A stretch of 64,000 nucleotides of DNA from Clostridiaceae bacterium DTU079. Its GTDB lineage: Bacteria > Bacillota > Clostridia > Acetivibrionales > Acetivibrionaceae. Shown here piece after piece: positions 27,004 to 60,690 of the stretch (positions are counted from its first letter, which is position 1; each line of letters starts with the position of its first letter). The position numbers and the translations under genes are program-made. The stretch lies in NCBI GenBank assembly GCA_001512505.1, contig LFSC01000009.1, forward strand, positions 106,148 through 170,147, in the 5' to 3' direction. Below the pieces are notes generated by a model. That model was not told the origin of the DNA, ran no database searches, and saw only the letters and a program-made list of their open reading frames with translations.

Positions 27004-27080
27004 TCTTTATAAATCACTTTTAAATCCTTAGCATATAAGTTTTAACAAGCTCTGCCTATGGTTTTCCTGTCTTAACTTGA

Positions 27081-29708
27081 TTAACCTTTGTTCATAACTA
27101 CAGCCTGTGCTGCAGCAAGCCTTGCAATCGGTACACGGAACGGAGAACATGAAACATAGTTCAAACCTGTTCTGTAACAGAACTCAATAGATGATGGATC
27201 TCCACCGTGCTCACCGCATATACCCAGCTTAATATCCGGTCTGGTTTGCTTTCCAAGTTTTGCCGCCATTTCTACAAGTTTGCCCACACCGGTCTGGTCA
27301 AGCTTTGCAAACGGATCAAAATCATAAATCTTTTTACTAAAATATTCTTCAAGGAACTTTCCTGCATCGTCACGGCTGAAGCCAAAGGTCATCTGGGTAA
27401 GGTCATTGGTTCCGAAGGAGAAGAATTCAGCTTCTTTTGCTATCTCATCCGCAGTAATAGCAGCCCTTGGAATTTCAATCATTGTTCCGACCTTGTATTC
27501 AAGCTTCACACCCGATTTCTCAATGATTTCATTGGCAGTTCTTACAACAACATCTTTAACATATTTAAGTTCTTTTACGTCTCCCACCAACGGAATCATT
27601 ATTTCAGGAACAACATTTATATTCTTTTTACTTACATTTATTGCAGCTTCAATAACAGCCCTTGTCTGCATTTCCGCAATCTCAGGATAAGAAACCGCAA
27701 GACGGCATCCTCTGTGACCCATCATAGGATTGAGCTCGTGAAGGTCCAGCACAATTGTTTTCAATTCATTAAATGTCATTCCCATTTCTTTTGCGAGGGC
27801 TTCAATATCTTTATCTTCCTGAGGCAGGAATTCATGAAGCGGCGGATCCAAAAATCTTATTGTAACAGGATTTCCTTCCATAGCCGTAAACAGAGCTTCA
27901 AAGTCACTCCTTTGCATCGGAAGGAGCTTGTCTAAAGCTTTTCTTCTCTGTTCTTCCGTTCTTGCCACAATCATTTCCCTCATTGCAGGAATTCTGTCTG
28001 CCTCAAAGAACATATGCTCCGTACGGCAAAGTCCTATACCTTCGGCTCCGAATTTTCTTGCCTGCTCAGCGTCTTTCGGAGTGTCGGCATTGGTTCTTAT
28101 TTTAAGCGTCCTGATTTCGTCGGCCCAGCTCATCAGAGTTGCAAAATTACCTGTCATTTCAGGCTCTATGGTAGGAAGCTTTTCTCCGTATACATTACCG
28201 GTTGAACCGTCGAGAGAAATCCAATCACCCTCAACATATTTCTTTCCGCTCTTATCAACAAAGTATTTTTCTTCTTCATTTATCTTAATTTCACTACAGC
28301 CTGCAACACAGCAAGTACCCATACCGCGGGCAACAACAGCTGCATGGGAGGTCATTCCGCCACGGCCGGTAAGTATACCATTAGATACATGCATACCTTC
28401 AATATCCTCTGGTGAGGTTTCAAGTCTTACCAGCACAACATTCTTTTCCCCGTTCTTATATGCATTTACCGCATCTTCCGATCTGAAGTAAATCTTCCCG
28501 GTGGCCGCTCCCGGTGATGCCGGCAAACCTTTTGCAATAGGTACTGCAGCCTTGAGAGCTTTCGGTTCAAAGTTCGGATGGAGCAAAGCATCCAGCTGCT
28601 TCGGATCCACCTTCATAATAGCTTCTTCCTTGGTAATCATTCCTTCATTTACCAAATCAACAGCAATCTTTAACGCAGCAGCAGCTGTTCTCTTTCCGTT
28701 TCTTGTCTGGAGCATAAAGAGCTTTCCTCTTTCAATGGTAAACTCCATGTCCTGCATATCTCTATAATGCCTTTCAAGCTTTTCGGCGATATCCACAAAC
28801 TGGTTATAAACTTCCGGCATAATTTCCTTGAGCTGATCTATGGATTGAGGAGTCCTGATACCTGCAACAACGTCCTCACCCTGGGCATTCATGAGAAATT
28901 CTCCATACAGCTTCTTTTCGCCGGTGGACGGATTTCTTGTAAAGGCAACACCGGTACCCGAATCATTTCCCATGTTACCGTATACCATTTCCTGAACGTT
29001 TACGGCAGTACCCCAGTCACCGGGTATATCATTCAATCTTCTATAAACAATTGCCCTGGGGTTGTCCCATGAACGGAAAACAGCTTTAACTGCTTCCATC
29101 AACTGAACTTTCGGATCCTGCGGGAAATCTGTTCCCTTTTCCTTCTTGTAAAGCTCCTTGTACCTTTTCACCACTTCCTTAAGGTTCTCAGCGGTAAGTT
29201 CAGTGTCTAAAGTTACATGATTCTCTTCCTTTACATCATCGAGAATTTTTTCAAACTTATTCTTTTCCACTTCCATAACTACATCGCTGAACATTTGAAT
29301 AAACCTTCTATAGCTGTCATATGCAAATCTTTCATTGTTTGTAAGCTTTGCAAGACCAACCACAACTTCATCATTCAATCCAAGGTTTAATATTGTATCC
29401 ATCATACCGGGCATGGATGCTCTTGCACCGGAACGAACTGAAACAAGAAACGGATTTGACGGGTCACCGAATTTTTTACCAACTATTTCTTCAGTCTTCG
29501 CCAACATAGAATATATTTCATCTTCTATTTCCTTTGCTATAACCTTTCCATCCTGATAATAGCGTGTACAAGCCTCGGTCGTTACAGTAAATCCTCTTGG
29601 TACAGGAAGTCCTAAACTTGTCATTTCTGCAAGGTTAGCACCCTTACCTCCGAGAAGGTTTCTCATTGATGCATTACCTTCGCTAAATAAATACACATAC
29701 TTTGCCAT
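27081..29708 (-). CDS. ppdK: Pyruvate, phosphate dikinase
   Basis: Interconverts PEP, AMP and PPi with pyruvate, ATP and Pi. In C. thermocellum-like organisms that lack pyruvate kinase activity it is a main route between PEP and pyruvate. The 875-aa length is standard. The N-terminal nucleotide-binding domain begins KYVYLFSEGN and LLGGKGANLAEMTSLGLPVP; SGARASMPGMMDTILNLGLN is a nucleotide-binding motif; the phosphohistidine domain has GGMTSHAAVVARGMGTCCVA; the PEP/pyruvate barrel contains EGIGLCRTEHMFF and FGTNDLTQMTFGFSRDD and ends LGICGEHGGDPSS. The ATG follows a clear AGGAGG. It is monocistronic with a hairpin in its leader at 29786-29839. Confidence 0.98.
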   Translation of the reverse strand: MAKYVYLFSEGNASMRNLLGGKGANLAEMTSLGLPVPRGFTVTTEACTRYYQDGKVIAKEIEDEIYSMLAKTEEIVGKKFGDPSNPFLVSVRSGARASMPGMMDTILNLGLNDEVVVGLAKLTNNERFAYDSYRRFIQMFSDVVMEVEKNKFEKILDDVKEENHVTLDTELTAENLKEVVKRYKELYKKEKGTDFPQDPKVQLMEAVKAVFRSWDNPRAIVYRRLNDIPGDWGTAVNVQEMVYGNMGNDSGTGVAFTRNPSTGEKKLYGEFLMNAQGEDVVAGIRTPQSIDQLKEIMPEVYNQFVDIAEKLERHYRDMQDMEFTIERGKLFMLQTRNGKRTAAAALKIAVDLVNEGMITKEEAIMKVDPKQLDALLHPNFEPKALKAAVPIAKGLPASPGAATGKIYFRSEDAVNAYKNGEKNVVLVRLETSPEDIEGMHVSNGILTGRGGMTSHAAVVARGMGTCCVAGCSEIKINEEEKYFVDKSGKKYVEGDWISLDGSTGNVYGEKLPTIEPEMTGNFATLMSWADEIRTLKIRTNADTPKDAEQARKFGAEGIGLCRTEHMFFEADRIPAMREMIVARTEEQRRKALDKLLPMQRSDFEALFTAMEGNPVTIRFLDPPLHEFLPQEDKDIEALAKEMGMTFNELKTIVLDLHELNPMMGHRGCRLAVSYPEIAEMQTRAVIEAAINVSKKNINVVPEIMIPLVGDVKELKYVKDVVVRTANEIIEKSGVKLEYKVGTMIEIPRAAITADEIAKEAEFFSFGTNDLTQMTFGFSRDDAGKFLEEYFSKKIYDFDPFAKLDQTGVGKLVEMAAKLGKQTRPDIKLGICGEHGGDPSSIEFCYRTGLNYVSCSPFRVPIARLAAAQAVVMNKG

Positions 29709-30355
29709 AAAAAAACCTCCTATTCTTTTTTTTATTCTGAACTGTGAAACAGGAAGGTTTTCCTATAAAGCTTTAAAACAGTAAAAAGCCTATAATGTTT
29801 TCAATATGTATTTAGAAAAACATCCCTAAAAATAGGCTTCTTCCACACCTCTAAAGCTCTATTTCGCCCATCCCGGTTCACAAATCGGCTTCTATGTATT
29901 AAATAGTATTATTTTATTTTCTCTCTATTATTAATAAATTTGAGGTTTGATAAAATTATTTGTAAGCTTTTTATCCCTTAACCCATCTAATTATAACATA
30001 TAATTATTTTTTTTCATTACTTTTTTTTAAAACTTATCATTTTTCTTAAAAAACTTTTCTTAAGCGGGATTACCTTAATAAACTTCCCCAAAATTGCAGT
30101 TTTCATACTTTTTCTTAACAGATGCTTATTCCCTTCAAAACGACATTTTTCTTCTATAAGTAACATATTATGCTTTTTAGCATAAAAAAAACGCTTTTTG
30201 TACAAAAATACTTCTCAATTTTATTATAATATTTTATTATTGTATTATAAGTAAAAAATTTATTTCATATAATTATGTTTGTATTCTTTTTTATTTCATT
30301 TCTTGGAGGTTCATATAATTAATCAGCATTTTAATTCAGATGGGGCTGATATCAA
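29709..30355. other. Divergent intergenic region, ppdK to radical SAM gene
   Basis: Very AT-rich. It contains the ppdK leader hairpin (29786-29839) and a T-rich track at 29920-30300. A TTGGAGG at about 30302 does not lead into the radical SAM frame at proper spacing. An AT-rich 62-codon minus-strand frame (30017-30205) is Lys/Phe low complexity and looks spurious. Confidence 0.4.
29786..29839 (-). promoter_or_regulatory. Terminator-like hairpin in the ppdK leader
   Basis: AAGCCTAT (29786-29793) and ATAGGCTT (29832-29839) close a longer stem with inner arms ATGTTTT and AAAACAT. On the minus strand it is followed by TTTTT, about 78 nt upstream of the ppdK start. It looks like an intrinsic terminator inside a 5' leader, compatible with attenuation of ppdK. 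No specific ligand or mechanism is known to me. Confidence 0.45.
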
Positions 30356-31435
30356 ATGTGTGTTTGTCTTACGGATTCTAAAACAGGACAACCGGTGTTC
30401 TCTCTCCAGTGGCACATAACCGCAAAATGTGATCAAAAATGCACTCATTGTTATATGTATGGCTCACCCTTTTATGAATCGGAAACCAAAAATGAGCTGT
30501 CTCTTTCAGACTGCAAAGCAATTATAGATGATTTTAGCGATACCATAAGGGACTTATCAAGAAAAGGATGTATTTATTTTACAGGCGGCGATCCCTTGCT
30601 TCGTGAAGACTTCTTTGAAATATTAAAGTACACTGCAAAAAGAAACCTTTATCCCATCGGAATTGCCGGAAACTCATATCACCTGGATTATGACACAGCT
30701 ATGCGGCTTAAGGAATACGGTGTATCCATGTATCAAATAAGCCTTGACGGTCTTTCGGACACCCATGACCGTTTCAGAAAACCCGGGAGCTTCAAAGACG
30801 CATTAAGGGCTTTTGAAGTTCTCAACAAAGCAGGAATCGATTCCATGTGCATGTTTACGTTAAGCAAGCAAAACATGGACCAATTAATTCCCGTAATCAA
30901 ATTGGCAGCTGAAATCGGTCTGGCTGGCTTTGATTTTGACAGGGTCGTACCTGTAGGATCGGCAAAAAATTTGAAGGATCAAACTATCGAGCCTTTGGAA
31001 TACAAAGAACTTTTATTGAAAGTGAATGAAGAATACAAGAGTCTTAGGGCAAAAGGCTGTAAAACCCGGTTTGGCTACAAAGACAACCTTTGGGTTCTTG
31101 TACAGGATGAAAAGGGCATTGAGTCCTCTCAAAATCCCGTTCCCGGTGGATTCGGTATAAAAAGAGGTTGTTTGATAGGTTATGCAGGATTGGCTGTTTT
31201 AGCTGACGGCAAAGTAATGGCCTGCAGAAGGCTTCCAATAATCATAGGCAAGCTTCCTCAGCAAAAAATATGGGATATATTTTTGGAATCTTCGGTTTTA
31301 GAGGAATTAAGGCGCTTTGACAAGCTCGAAAAATGCAGTTCTTGTGACAATTTTGAACACTGTAAAGGATGCCGTGCTGTTGCATACGGATATTACGGCA
31401 GTTATTATTCAAAAGACCCGGGCTGCTGGTTGTAG
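30356..31435 (+). CDS. Radical SAM/SPASM peptide-modifying enzyme candidate
   Basis: Radical SAM protein of 359 aa. The [4Fe-4S]/SAM motif CDQKCTHCYMYG lies at about residues 26-38, followed by YFTGGDPLLRED and SLDGLSDTHDRFR. The C-terminal SPASM/twitch region has Cys at CLIGYAGLAVLADGKVMACRR and then CSSCDNFEHCKGC and a last Cys near the end, enough ligands for two auxiliary clusters. This architecture is typical of enzymes that cross-link or otherwise modify ribosomal peptides. It has only a weak GGGG upstream of the ATG. It is followed 55 nt later by agrB and an agrD-like peptide on the same strand. Its substrate is not proven; the AgrD-like peptide or an unseen peptide are candidates. Confidence 0.85.
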   Translation: MCVCLTDSKTGQPVFSLQWHITAKCDQKCTHCYMYGSPFYESETKNELSLSDCKAIIDDFSDTIRDLSRKGCIYFTGGDPLLREDFFEILKYTAKRNLYPIGIAGNSYHLDYDTAMRLKEYGVSMYQISLDGLSDTHDRFRKPGSFKDALRAFEVLNKAGIDSMCMFTLSKQNMDQLIPVIKLAAEIGLAGFDFDRVVPVGSAKNLKDQTIEPLEYKELLLKVNEEYKSLRAKGCKTRFGYKDNLWVLVQDEKGIESSQNPVPGGFGIKRGCLIGYAGLAVLADGKVMACRRLPIIIGKLPQQKIWDIFLESSVLEELRRFDKLEKCSSCDNFEHCKGCRAVAYGYYGSYYSKDPGCWL

Positions 31436-31490
31436 GTGCATATTATACCCTTTCACCGATTATACTAAAATCTAACAGGATGGTGTTAAT

Positions 31491-32126
31491 GTGTCGTTAT
31501 TACACAAGCTATGCAGCAATTTAACCGATGCCATTAAAACAAAGGTAAAATCCGTTGACGAAGGAAAAGCCGAAATAATTCATTACGGTCTTTATTTGTG
31601 GATCACCGACACGATAAAACTGGCAATGATTCTTATAACTGCTTATTTTCTGAATATTTTAACAGAAACCGTTATATTTCTCATTAGCTTTGGTCTTTTA
31701 AGAACCTTTGCAGGAGGAGCCCATGCTAAAACTTTTATGAGCTGCTTGATTTTAAACAGTCTAATAACCTTTGGAACAGTGTATCTATCGATATGGCTTT
31801 CATTTATAAACCCAATAATAATCTGTATGGCTATAATGCCTTTTTGCACCTTAGCAGTTTACTTCTATGCACCTTCAGACCACGAAAACAAACCTGTAAC
31901 AAGTAAAAAGCAGCGAAAAAGGCTGAAAACTATTGCCTATATTATACTGTTTTCTGAGTTGTCGTTATCGATTTTATTTAATCAGAGTTTGATAGCTTTT
32001 TCAATTTTTGCAGTTTGCCTAGGCATACTTCCCATAACCTATAAAATAATGGGAAACCGCTATGGAACCGGCCAGCAGGATAACTCTAAACGGATAAAGC
32101 AAGCAAGAAAGGAGGGATCGTTATGA
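31491..32126 (+). CDS. agrB: AgrB-type accessory gene regulator protein
   Basis: Membrane endopeptidase that processes the AgrD pro-peptide into a cyclic thiolactone signal. The 211-aa length and about six hydrophobic segments fit. LLRTFAGGAHAKTFMSCLILN contains the conserved His and Cys of the catalytic pair (segments RTFAGGAHAKTF and SCLILN). The GTG at 31491 is preceded by AGGATGGTG. Its stop (TGA at 32124-32126) overlaps the ATG of the agrD-like gene by four nt (ATGA), a classic sign of translational coupling. It is probably co-transcribed with the radical SAM gene upstream; a TATACT sequence between them could be part of a second promoter. Confidence 0.9.
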   Translation: MSLLHKLCSNLTDAIKTKVKSVDEGKAEIIHYGLYLWITDTIKLAMILITAYFLNILTETVIFLISFGLLRTFAGGAHAKTFMSCLILNSLITFGTVYLSIWLSFINPIIICMAIMPFCTLAVYFYAPSDHENKPVTSKKQRKRLKTIAYIILFSELSLSILFNQSLIAFSIFAVCLGILPITYKIMGNRYGTGQQDNSKRIKQARKEGSL

Positions 32127-32290
32127 TTAAAAAACTAATATTACCGCTTAAAAATTACAACATATCTACTTTACTGTTAGGTATACTGGCACTGTTTGCA
32201 GCATGCATCGCCCAACTTTCCTCCAACAGCTGTGTTGCCTGGTCCTTCGAACAGCCTAAAATGCCCGAATCGTTAAGAAAATATGATTAA
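32123..32290 (+). CDS. agrD: AgrD-like signal pro-peptide, 55 aa
   Basis: Small gene with GGAGGGA six nt upstream of its ATG. MIKKLILPLKNYNISTLLLG is an amphipathic N-terminal leader typical of AgrD, followed by the hydrophobic ILALFAACIAQ, then a presumed core around SSNSCVAWSF and an acidic/Pro tail EQPKMPESLRKYD. The tail aligns with the conserved (D/Y)EPxxPxEL recognition segment that follows the staphylococcal and listerial signals, so cleavage would fall near the Phe-Glu junction. The core has one Cys (residue 37) followed by five residues (VAWSF), so the thiolactone ring would have five or six members. A second Cys (28) is in the leader. It ends just before a strong terminator. Confidence 0.85.
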   Translation: MIKKLILPLKNYNISTLLLGILALFAACIAQLSSNSCVAWSFEQPKMPESLRKYD

Positions 32291-32294
32291 GTTT

Positions 32295-32324
32295 AAAAAA
32301 GCTCCGGTTCTTCCGGAGCTTTTC
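32295..32324. terminator. Bidirectional terminator between agrD and the GHKL kinase
   Basis: AAAAGCTCCGG and CCGGAGCTTTT (32297-32307, 32313-32323) form an 11-bp perfect stem with a 5-nt loop, flanked by A and T runs on both sides. It serves both convergent transcripts. Confidence 0.92.
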
Positions 32325-32329
32325 TAATA

Positions 32330-33661
32330 CTACGGTCTAATAATCAATTCCTGTCTGAATCTGGATGTTTCAGCCTGAGTATTTAGCATTACATTTTCAT
32401 ATTTAGAAATAATTCTCTTCAAAATACTAAGACCTAATCCCCGACCTTCTCCTTTAGTCGAATAACCCTCTTCGTAAGCTTTTGCAACATTTACTTCTTC
32501 CGAAGTTGCATTTTCTATAACAAAGCTTACATTTCCGTCCATGCTTCTTATAAACAATTCCACAACCTTTCTTTCACTGGTGCCGGCTGCCTCTATTGCA
32601 TTATCCAGAAGAATTCCCAGAACCTCACAGAATTCCGACATTTTCATCCCTATTTCACTTATCTCGCCTTCCGTTACCACTTTAAAATCAACCTGCGTTT
32701 CTCTGGCATACTCATACTTGTCCATAATGAGCCAAAGAACACCCGCATTTTTGATGTTTGCCATTGAAAGGTTGTCTAAAAAACTTACTTTAGAAATATT
32801 ACCGCACATTTCATTATAATATCTTTCCACCTCATCCCACTTCTTAGTCTTTATATATCCGCCAAACACGGAAAGAATATTGTTATAGTTATGTTTAAAC
32901 CTTCTAAGGTCTTTAATAATAGTATCCAACACTTTATTGTAAAAAATCTGATATTCAAGTTCCTGGCTCTTTGTTTCAAGCTTGAAAAAAGTGTTTGTGT
33001 TAAACAATGAAAACAACATAAATACAATAAGGAGGAGCATACTTATTGCAAGGGTTGTTATATCCGTTACCGTAGAATATTTTTCATAATAATTAAAGTT
33101 TAAAGTCATAATTACAAGCACAAGGCATATATAAATAATATTTGTCCTGTAAGCCTTCCACCGTATATCTGCATTGAAGGAAGAAAACACCTTGAAGGAT
33201 TTTATTATCGCAAGTATTATTATTACCACCGAATTAATTATAACCATACTGATAATGCTATTTAACAATGACATTTTAACATCAACATATTCAATACCAA
33301 AGGCTTTAAATACCAGTGAAGCAATAACATTTCCAATCGCAAGAAATAACAAATAAAAAAATTCACAAATAACACATTTAATAAGCTTCAACTTAAAAAA
33401 ACACCTGAGCAAAATAATGAAAGTAGCCGTGCAAAAAACGGTCCTAAATGTCATTGCCAAATTTGGTGAAATCATTACAAGCACATAATTCGAAAAACCC
33501 ACAATAATCCCTAGAATAAATATGCACATCACAGCATAAGCAGCTATCAATTTAAACCGAAATTTGGTGTTGAAAATAATTTCTGCCGTAAATGCTGCCA
33601 GAAAAGCTGAACCGACAACCGTAACCAGATTATCGATAATAAAGCTTAACCAATCCTGCAC
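32330..33661 (-). CDS. AgrC-like GHKL sensor histidine kinase
   Basis: Membrane sensor of 443 aa. About six hydrophobic helices occupy residues 1-215, then a short linker and a GHKL kinase core. The presumed phospho-acceptor is in RRFKHNYNNILSVFGGYI, the N box is EVLGILLDNAIEAAGTSE, and the G box is GRGLGLSILKRIIS. This layout matches AgrC and related peptide-pheromone kinases (HPK10). It lies convergent to the radical SAM-agrB-agrD set and shares a terminator with it. No LytTR-type response regulator (AgrA) is in the window, so the output partner must be elsewhere or absent. Ligand specificity is inferred from proximity. Confidence 0.85.
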   Translation of the reverse strand: MQDWLSFIIDNLVTVVGSAFLAAFTAEIIFNTKFRFKLIAAYAVMCIFILGIIVGFSNYVLVMISPNLAMTFRTVFCTATFIILLRCFFKLKLIKCVICEFFYLLFLAIGNVIASLVFKAFGIEYVDVKMSLLNSIISMVIINSVVIIILAIIKSFKVFSSFNADIRWKAYRTNIIYICLVLVIMTLNFNYYEKYSTVTDITTLAISMLLLIVFMLFSLFNTNTFFKLETKSQELEYQIFYNKVLDTIIKDLRRFKHNYNNILSVFGGYIKTKKWDEVERYYNEMCGNISKVSFLDNLSMANIKNAGVLWLIMDKYEYARETQVDFKVVTEGEISEIGMKMSEFCEVLGILLDNAIEAAGTSERKVVELFIRSMDGNVSFVIENATSEEVNVAKAYEEGYSTKGEGRGLGLSILKRIISKYENVMLNTQAETSRFRQELIIRP

Positions 33662-33952: not shown

Positions 33953-35341
33953 CTAAAAATCAAACTTCCCTTCAAAATAAGTTAAAAGTTCATCAATTTT
34001 TACTCTCACCTGCTGCATGGTATCACGATCTCTAATAGTAACACTTTGGTCATTCAGTGAATCGAAATCAAAGGTTATACAATATGGCGTACCTATCTCA
34101 TCCTGCCTTCTGTATCTCTTGCCTATACTTCCGGTCTCGTCATATTCACAGTTATACTTCTTTATAAGCATTTCATAAACCTTGTATGCATCGTCCCCAA
34201 GCTTCTTTGAAAGGGGCAAGACAGCTATCTTTACCGGTGCAATGGCAGGATGGAAACGCAGCACCACCCTAATATCTCCCTTTTCCACTTCTTCCTCATC
34301 ATATGCCTCACACAGAAAAGCAAGAGTCACCCTGTCGGCACCTAAAGAGGGTTCTATACAATAAGGAATGTATTTTTCATTTGTATTAGGATCAAAATAT
34401 GATAGATCCTCCTTCGAATGCTCTGCATGCTGCTTTAAGTCAAAATCCGTTCTGTCGGCAATTCCCCATAATTCTCCCCAGCCAAAGGGAAATTTATATT
34501 CTATATCAGTTGTGGCATTGCTGTAATGGGATAATTCTTCCTTGCTGTGGTCACGCATTTTAAGATTGTCTTTATTGATATTAAGGTTTAAAAGCCAATT
34601 ATAGCAAAAGTTCTTCCAGTAGTCGAACCATTCCAGGTCTTCTCCGGGCTTACAGAAGAATTCCAGCTCCATCTGCTCAAATTCACGGGTCCTGAAAATA
34701 AAATTACCCGGTGTTATCTCATTTCTGAAGGATTTTCCTATCTGCCCAATACCGAAAGGTATCTTCCTTCTGGTTGTCCTTTGGACGTTTTTAAAGTTTA
34801 CAAATATACCCTGGGCTGTTTCAGGCCTTAAAAAAATTTCTGCTTTTGAATCCTCGGTAACTCCCTGATAGGTCTTGAACATAAGGTTGAATTTTCGAAT
34901 ATCTGTGAAGTTTTTGGAACCGCAATTGGGACAAGTTACTCCTTTTTCTTTTATGTAATCAACCAATTGTTCGTTTGTCCAACCGTCAACCTTTACATTT
35001 TCTCCGTTTTTCTCATTCCAGTCTTCAATCATCTTGTCTGCTCTATGGCGCATCTTACAGTCCTTGCAGTCTATAAGAGGATCGCTGAATCCTCCCACAT
35101 GCCCTGAAGCTACCCAAACCTGGGGATTCATCAATATGGCACAGTCCACACCAACATTATATGGGTTCTCCTGGACAAACTTCTTCCACCATGCCTTCTT
35201 AACATTATTCTTTAGCTCAACTCCGAGCGGACCGTAATCCCAAGCATTAGCCAAACCTCCATATATATCGGATCCCGGATATACAAATCCCCGGTTTTTT
35301 GACAGAGCTACTATTTTCTCCATTGTCTTCTCTACTTGCAT
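33953..35341 (-). CDS. glyS: Glycine--tRNA ligase, alpha2 dimer type
   Basis: Class II aminoacyl-tRNA synthetase that charges tRNA-Gly; the single-chain (eukaryotic/archaeal-like) form rather than glyQ+glyS. The 462-aa length is right. Motif 1 region [19 protein letters not shown], motif 2 around [21 protein letters not shown], and motif 3 in [18 protein letters not shown]; the C-terminal anticodon-binding domain starts near [11 protein letters not shown]. Two Cys-rich pairs (CKDCKMR and CPNCGSKNF) look like a zinc-binding insert. The ATG follows AGGAGGCAATG. No T-box is seen in the 43-nt gap to coaBC, and it probably reads through from that operon or from its own promoter. Confidence 0.96.
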
Positions 35342-60421: not shown

Positions 60422-60690
60422 TAAAGCCTCCCGTCTGACAAGACGTCAGGGACGAGAGGCCTTTATTCCCGCGGTACCACCCTACTAGGCAACACTATCG
60501 TGTGTTTGCCCACTTTACATTCTTTTAACGCAAGAATCTGCGGATCAATCTAATCGTATGATAATACTTTCAATCAACCGGCTCACGGGGGTCTTTCTCC
60601 AACCTATTTCCTTAAAAGTGCTTGCAGTCACGGCACTTTCTCCCTTAAAGGCAGTATTGGTTACTTCTCCCGTTCATAGCTGTTAAACAC
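60422..60690 (-). promoter_or_regulatory. T-box leader of hisS-aspS, likely His specifier
   Basis: Contains the T-box AGGGTGGTACCGCGG (60469-60483 complement), followed by a terminator stem CCTCTCGTC...GACGgGAGG (60422-60466 region) and U run. Stem I arms AATACT (60653-60658) and AGTATT (60563-60568) place the specifier loop just after; the codon there reads CAT (60558-60560), a His codon, followed by A. Uncharged tRNA-His would bind it and stabilise the antiterminator, switching on hisS and aspS. Confidence 0.88.

Follow-up and report, generated by a model that had tools for sequence, protein, structure and literature searches.

An agr-type signalling cassette of Acetivibrio that may have recruited an ACGX-family radical SAM/SPASM maturase

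The 64,000 bp stretch analysed here (the window) is positions 106,148 to 170,147 of contig LFSC01000009.1 from Clostridiaceae bacterium DTU079 [GenBank assembly GCA_001512505.1], a 3.1 Mb genome of the Acetivibrio (Clostridium thermocellum) group. The interval between ppdK and glyS is filled by four genes: one for a radical S-adenosylmethionine (SAM)/SPASM enzyme, agrB, agrD, and then a convergent gene for an AgrC-type kinase (Table 1). The preferred reading, to which a probability of roughly 0.5 is given, is that this is an agr-type signalling cassette that recruited a radical SAM/SPASM maturase of the ACGX family, which would modify AgrD. An earlier note made from the letters of the window had described the radical SAM gene, agrB, an overlapping agrD, a strong terminator and a convergent GHKL kinase, and all of these lie where it had placed them. 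Its view that this is an agr-type cassette with a non-standard radical SAM gene is borne out.

The cassette is found in the same order and with the same flanks in 5 of the 6 genus genomes, which are the present genome (G000), G001, A. straminisolvens (G004), A. mesophilus (G005) and G003, which we take to be A. thermocellus ATCC 27405. A comparison of gene order in related genomes, as proposed in the earlier note, found the ppdK-glyS site without the cassette in the sixth genome of the genus (G002) and in seven family genomes (G006 to G012), where roughly 0.2-0.7 kb separates the two genes. The cassette was therefore acquired or lost as a single unit. Purifying selection acts on each of its four genes, with ratios of non-synonymous to synonymous substitution (dN/dS) mostly of 0.1-0.2. 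In the closest pairs, dS of the cassette is similar to that of the flanking genes, and therefore fits vertical inheritance since the gain. The linkage has been kept across a divergence where AgrB is only about 57-62% identical, and the radical SAM enzyme of G000 shares 72-82% identity with the intact copies in the other genomes. Given that order and flanks are shared by five genomes and that purifying selection acts on every gene, the arrangement is, as judged from these comparisons, far beyond chance. A frame break interrupts the gene in A. straminisolvens, but the idea that this species has lost the enzyme was rejected. In the draft genome of strain JCM 21531 (L035/L051), frame breaks affect ppdK and coaBC as well as the radical SAM gene, all on a single contig, and are therefore probably sequencing errors.

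Adjacency of a radical SAM gene and agrB is not new, because it has been published for C. thermocellum, where Cthe_1309 (radical SAM) and Cthe_1310 (AgrB) lie upstream of a new 54 aa AgrD, Cthe_3348 (Wilson et al. 2013, PMC3880215). This locus (ATCC 27405; G003:C1:1591992-1593897) has the same order of radical SAM gene, agrB and 54 aa agrD, and the same flanks, and is almost certainly orthologous to the cassette; the cassette described here is from another species, and its radical SAM protein is 72% identical. Cthe_1309 and Cthe_1310 are jointly upregulated on Populus relative to switchgrass, with log2 values of 4.25 and 4.16 at 12 h by RNA-seq and of 1.95 and 2.46 by array (PMC3880215). The published account covers adjacency and substrate-dependent expression only, and the enzyme family, distribution and mechanism considered here go beyond it.

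The enzyme carries the CX3CX2C radical SAM motif (C25/C29/C32) and a set of SPASM cysteines (C272, C290, C327, C330, C336, C339 and C357). All of the cluster-binding cysteines are kept in the orthologues, and nearly all of them in the alignment of the wider family. The best family is TIGR04340, the radical SAM/SPASM component (acgM) that accompanies acgA in the ACGX system, with a score of 307.3 bits that does not reach the curated cut-off of 400. Placement of the enzyme with the putative peptide maturases of the ACGX family is new here. The structure model is confident (predicted local distance difference test, pLDDT, 89.6), and the nearest solved folds, SkfB, anSME, SuiB, PqqE and ChlB, are mostly those of peptide-modifying enzymes. 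Because of these folds and of the genes that neighbour its relatives, the enzyme looks like a member of a family resembling peptide maturases. The same genome also encodes a paralogue that is 33% identical (L037 4737-6358, contig G000:C45), the gene for which overlaps one ending in CGGCGGCGGCGGD, with a product that ends in SSCGGCGGCGGCGGD; this pairing is also seen in L039, L041 and L042.

Relatives of the enzyme were sampled from 391 genomes of the class and 398 of the phylum, and at a threshold of E 1e-60 24 Bacillota relatives from outside Acetivibrio passed. A gene for an ACGX-repeat peptide directly adjoins 23 of these 24 next-nearest relatives, with acgA-type peptides upstream, and AgrB was found beside none of the 24 within the fetched stretches. 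Four relatives are plasmid-borne, and the two examined, from Roseburia (annotated acgA-acgM) and Methanosphaera, each have an ACGX peptide and no agrB; no phage-borne relatives were found in viral contigs. A Tissierellales relative (42% identical) adjoins two paralogous Cys/Gly-rich precursors and an ATP-binding cassette (ABC) transporter, and several more distant relatives also adjoin Cys-rich precursor-like genes. The earlier note had held that modification of AgrD would become untenable if homologues of the enzyme were found beside other precursors and away from agrBD. This is the situation of the distant relatives, but every orthologue lies next to agrBD. The Tissierellales locus, in a metagenome-assembled genome (L052 1735-7760), consists of genes for a glycosyltransferase, the radical SAM enzyme, a second protein, two precursors with an MKSLNELIWN leader and the ABC transporter, and is probably an uncharacterised cluster for a ribosomally synthesised and post-translationally modified peptide. 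In an Anoxychlamydiales metagenome-assembled genome (L056 2661-2861), the gene for a 66 aa peptide ending in GNGPCGD immediately precedes that for a radical SAM relative.

Compared with the ACGX system, the cassette has neither an ACGX peptide nor a nitroreductase, and has agrBD there instead. No ACGX peptide was found in the cassette or the 64 kb window, and AgrD is the sole precursor-like open reading frame (ORF) in the cassette. In Acetivibrio, agrBD thus occupies the position of the usual peptide gene beside the enzyme. Further short ORFs near 30240-30356, which the earlier note had thought worth looking for, did not materialise as a second precursor: the region holds only an out-of-frame ORF starting with TTG that is not conserved, and no further conserved one was found. 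A Cys-rich ORF at 27028-27150 is an out-of-frame reading of the end of ppdK, and ACGX-like candidates in the window or its flanks are mere shadows of other genes.

The agr components appear complete except for the regulator. AgrB has His78 and Cys85 spaced as the AgrB catalytic pair. The AgrD pro-peptide, ...LLLGILALFAACIAQLSSNSC-VAWSF-EQPKMPESLRKYD, scores over the TIGR04223 cut-off and has the ring Cys and the conserved P..P tail, with a predicted signal region ...SSNSC-VAWSF followed by the tail EQPKMPESL. The ring is predicted to be of six residues, C37 to F42, with the spacing counted against other AgrDs. W40 is invariant in the five cassette genomes, in which few ring types are sampled. 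The AgrC layout that the earlier note had seen in the kinase was confirmed: the multi-pass protein matches PF14501 (5e-18), its H, N and G boxes are intact, and it matches the AgrC model at 3.8e-31, which is below the cut-off of that model. It is 43% identical, across its length, to AgrC of the sister agr loci, and the sensor region is retained.

The AgrB of the cassette groups with those of genomes G036, G047 and G044, with a support of 0.97 for the wider clade and low support for the exact sister order. In the sister loci agrBD is convergent with agrC-agrA, including genes for LytTR-type AgrA, and because they carry this arrangement, it was probably the ancestral layout, from which agrA has gone and to which a maturase has been added here. 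The cassette shares intact AgrB, AgrD and AgrC with agrBDCA loci, and agrBD convergent with agrC as in L148, L149 and L151, but has an extra radical SAM gene in front, with agrA off the locus and a matching one in G000 and G001 only. No radical SAM gene was found in the fetched stretches of the sister loci, and a survey of 39 non-cassette agrB genes from a single order, most of them with flanks of 1.5 kb, found none linked to a radical SAM gene (0/39 within the fetched flanks). The linkage is confined to five closely related species; the pattern-based scan of a collection of 84,980 species detects close relatives only.

The earlier note saw no AgrA-type regulator, which holds for the cassette loci (L033 to L038), none of which has a LytTR regulator, but not for the genome, in which an AgrA of matching subtype is encoded at an unlinked position (G000:C30:3977-4681). 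The unlinked AgrA of G000 and G001 closely resembles the AgrA of the sister loci (about 4e-80) and adjoins an orphan agrD. No close copy was found in A. thermocellus, A. straminisolvens or A. mesophilus. Orphan agrD genes are seen at L143 5125-6158 (G000:C30), L144 3471-4649 (G000:C33) and L146 2774-3878 (G003:C1), and each adjoins a gene for a 280 aa multi-pass protein that is weakly AgrC-like, covering the sensor region and the start of the dimerisation helix. Pfam gave no hit for these proteins, which lack an ATPase domain, and, judged by eye, the phospho-accepting His is apparently replaced by Gln. When the orphan AgrD of C. thermocellum was studied earlier, no partner gene was found (PMC5322536).

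Modification of AgrD is favoured because of the adjacency, inheritance as a unit, co-regulation with agrB, the peptide-maturase family of the enzyme and the lack of another precursor. The radical SAM enzyme would act in the cytoplasm on pro-AgrD, placing a radical-dependent change, which could be a cross-link, an epimerisation or an oxidation, in or beside the NSCxxWx[FI] signal region. AgrB would then cut off the C-terminal EQPK... tail, close the (thio)lactone ring and export the product, which would be trimmed on its N-terminal side. The convergent AgrC would sense the product and, in G000, may pass phosphate to the AgrA of matching subtype that is encoded, unlinked, on contig C30. The roles assigned to AgrB, AgrD and AgrC follow known Agr biology by analogy; we infer AgrD as the substrate, the residue changed and the C30 AgrA as the partner. 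The known agr signals are plain thiolactones or lactones. It is proposed tentatively, and at somewhat short of even odds, that the enzyme switched partner from ACGX-repeat peptides to AgrD, and that a radical-made change before cyclisation by AgrB gives a new class of agr signal. Alteration of an agr signal by a radical enzyme may be new for agr, within the open-licence literature. The comQXPA system of Bacillus is a working analogue, as a modifying enzyme is encoded directly upstream of the gene for a signal peptide, together with a kinase; it differs in that the enzyme is a prenyltransferase acting on a Trp of ComX, the proteins are unrelated and there is no AgrB.

Several observations weigh against modification of AgrD. 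The peptides beside relatives of the enzyme are rich in Cys-Gly, and AgrD has no Cys-Gly repeats. It has a single invariant Cys that is needed for an ordinary thiolactone, and a thioether at Cys37 would compete with or block that bond. A sactipeptide or ranthipeptide maturase would be expected to act on a Cys-rich precursor and to form thioethers. The N-terminal leader of AgrD is not conserved, differing between two subclades, and the enzyme has no additional leader-binding domain. AgrDs of the sister loci, which are without the enzyme, share the frame IAQ-S-x-x-x-C-x5-[EG]QP with the cassette AgrDs, and no clear AgrD signature tracking the enzyme was found in this comparison, except perhaps SNSC. 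In C. thermocellum, agrD is highly expressed but, unlike the radical SAM gene and agrB before it, not differentially so (PMC3880215). A hypothesis of the modification type has also been tested and rejected for the LanM-like protein CA_C0082 of the Clostridium acetobutylicum agr locus, which acts as an Agr effector (PMC10301443). If AgrD is modified, the change is probably on a residue other than Cys37, for example W40, or else the ring is closed via Ser36.

The main alternative, unlikely but deserving most weight among the rivals, is that the enzyme is co-regulated with agr and modifies another peptide or protein encoded elsewhere, so that the signal is an ordinary thiolactone and the enzyme an effector. 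It gains from the precedent of CA_C0082, which lies beside an agr locus with a predicted six-residue ring in its autoinducing peptide (AIP) and is dispensable for active AIP (PMC10301443), from the ACGX or other Cys-rich peptides that adjoin the relatives, and from the similar appearance of AgrDs from loci without the enzyme. The clostridial agr-CA_C0082 clusters likewise have a modification-type gene beside agr and a predicted six-residue ring. However, CA_C0082 is LanM-like, has no catalytic residues and is encoded downstream of agrCA, whereas the cassette enzyme is of the radical SAM/SPASM type, keeps all its cluster cysteines and is encoded upstream of agrB on the same strand. Furthermore, the cassette and the window hold no alternative precursor, and the relatives nearly always have a likely substrate directly adjacent.

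It is improbable that the radical SAM gene lies beside agr without being connected to it in function. The linkage is known from so few species, all closely related, and AgrBD exists without the enzyme in the sister loci, but the enzyme gene has come or gone together with agrBDC, lies 55 nt from agrB on the same strand with the linkage outlasting much divergence of AgrB, and is co-regulated with agrB (PMC3880215). A modified, cyclic, bacteriocin-like product with the kinase serving self-sensing or immunity is very improbable. Wilson et al. did propose, for the locus in C. thermocellum, a role in signalling or in the making of a bacteriocin-like product (PMC3880215), and the different, orphan AgrD of that species gives a Ser-lactone pentapeptide that inhibits the growth of C. 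thermocellum itself at 50 uM (Verbeke et al. 2017, PMC5322536). However, the kinase in convergent orientation is plainly related to AgrC and retains the sensor region, sister loci hold the full agrBDCA set, and the cassette has no immunity or ABC transporter gene.

Table 1. Features of the cassette and its flanks, with positions in the window.
Feature	Position	Strand	Details
ppdK, left flank	27081..29708	-	Pyruvate phosphate dikinase, named from sequence; insertion-site marker
Radical SAM/SPASM enzyme	30356..31435	+	359 aa; ACGX (AcgM-like) subfamily; PF04055 4.7e-24, PF13186 1.3e-06
agrB	31491..32126	+	Peptidase/exporter of pro-AgrD; GTG start, 211 aa; PF04647 138 bits
agrD	32123..32290	+	55 aa pro-peptide; TIGR04223 33.5 bits (cut-off 19)
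Bidirectional terminator hairpin	about 32296..32325		Between convergent agrD and agrC; -19.8 kcal/mol, z -6.69
AgrC-type GHKL sensor kinase	32330..33661	-	443 aa; about 7 hydrophobic segments; H-box around residue 255
glyS, right flank	33953..35341	-	Glycyl-tRNA synthetase, named from sequence; insertion-site marker

The agrB and agrD genes overlap by 4 nt. The strong terminator that the earlier note had seen between the two arms is present as a hairpin; it was not listed by a generic terminator scan, for which its T tract is too short. Elsewhere in the window, a T-box leader is found at 60445-60686 on the reverse strand (112.5 bits).

Gene deletions have already been made in A. thermocellus (PMC5322536). 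If AgrD is indeed modified by the enzyme, radical chemistry, in addition to sequence, could determine the specificity of an agr signal, the cassette would exemplify the evolution of a maturase towards a different substrate, and it would offer a way into the regulation of a cellulose degrader used in industry.

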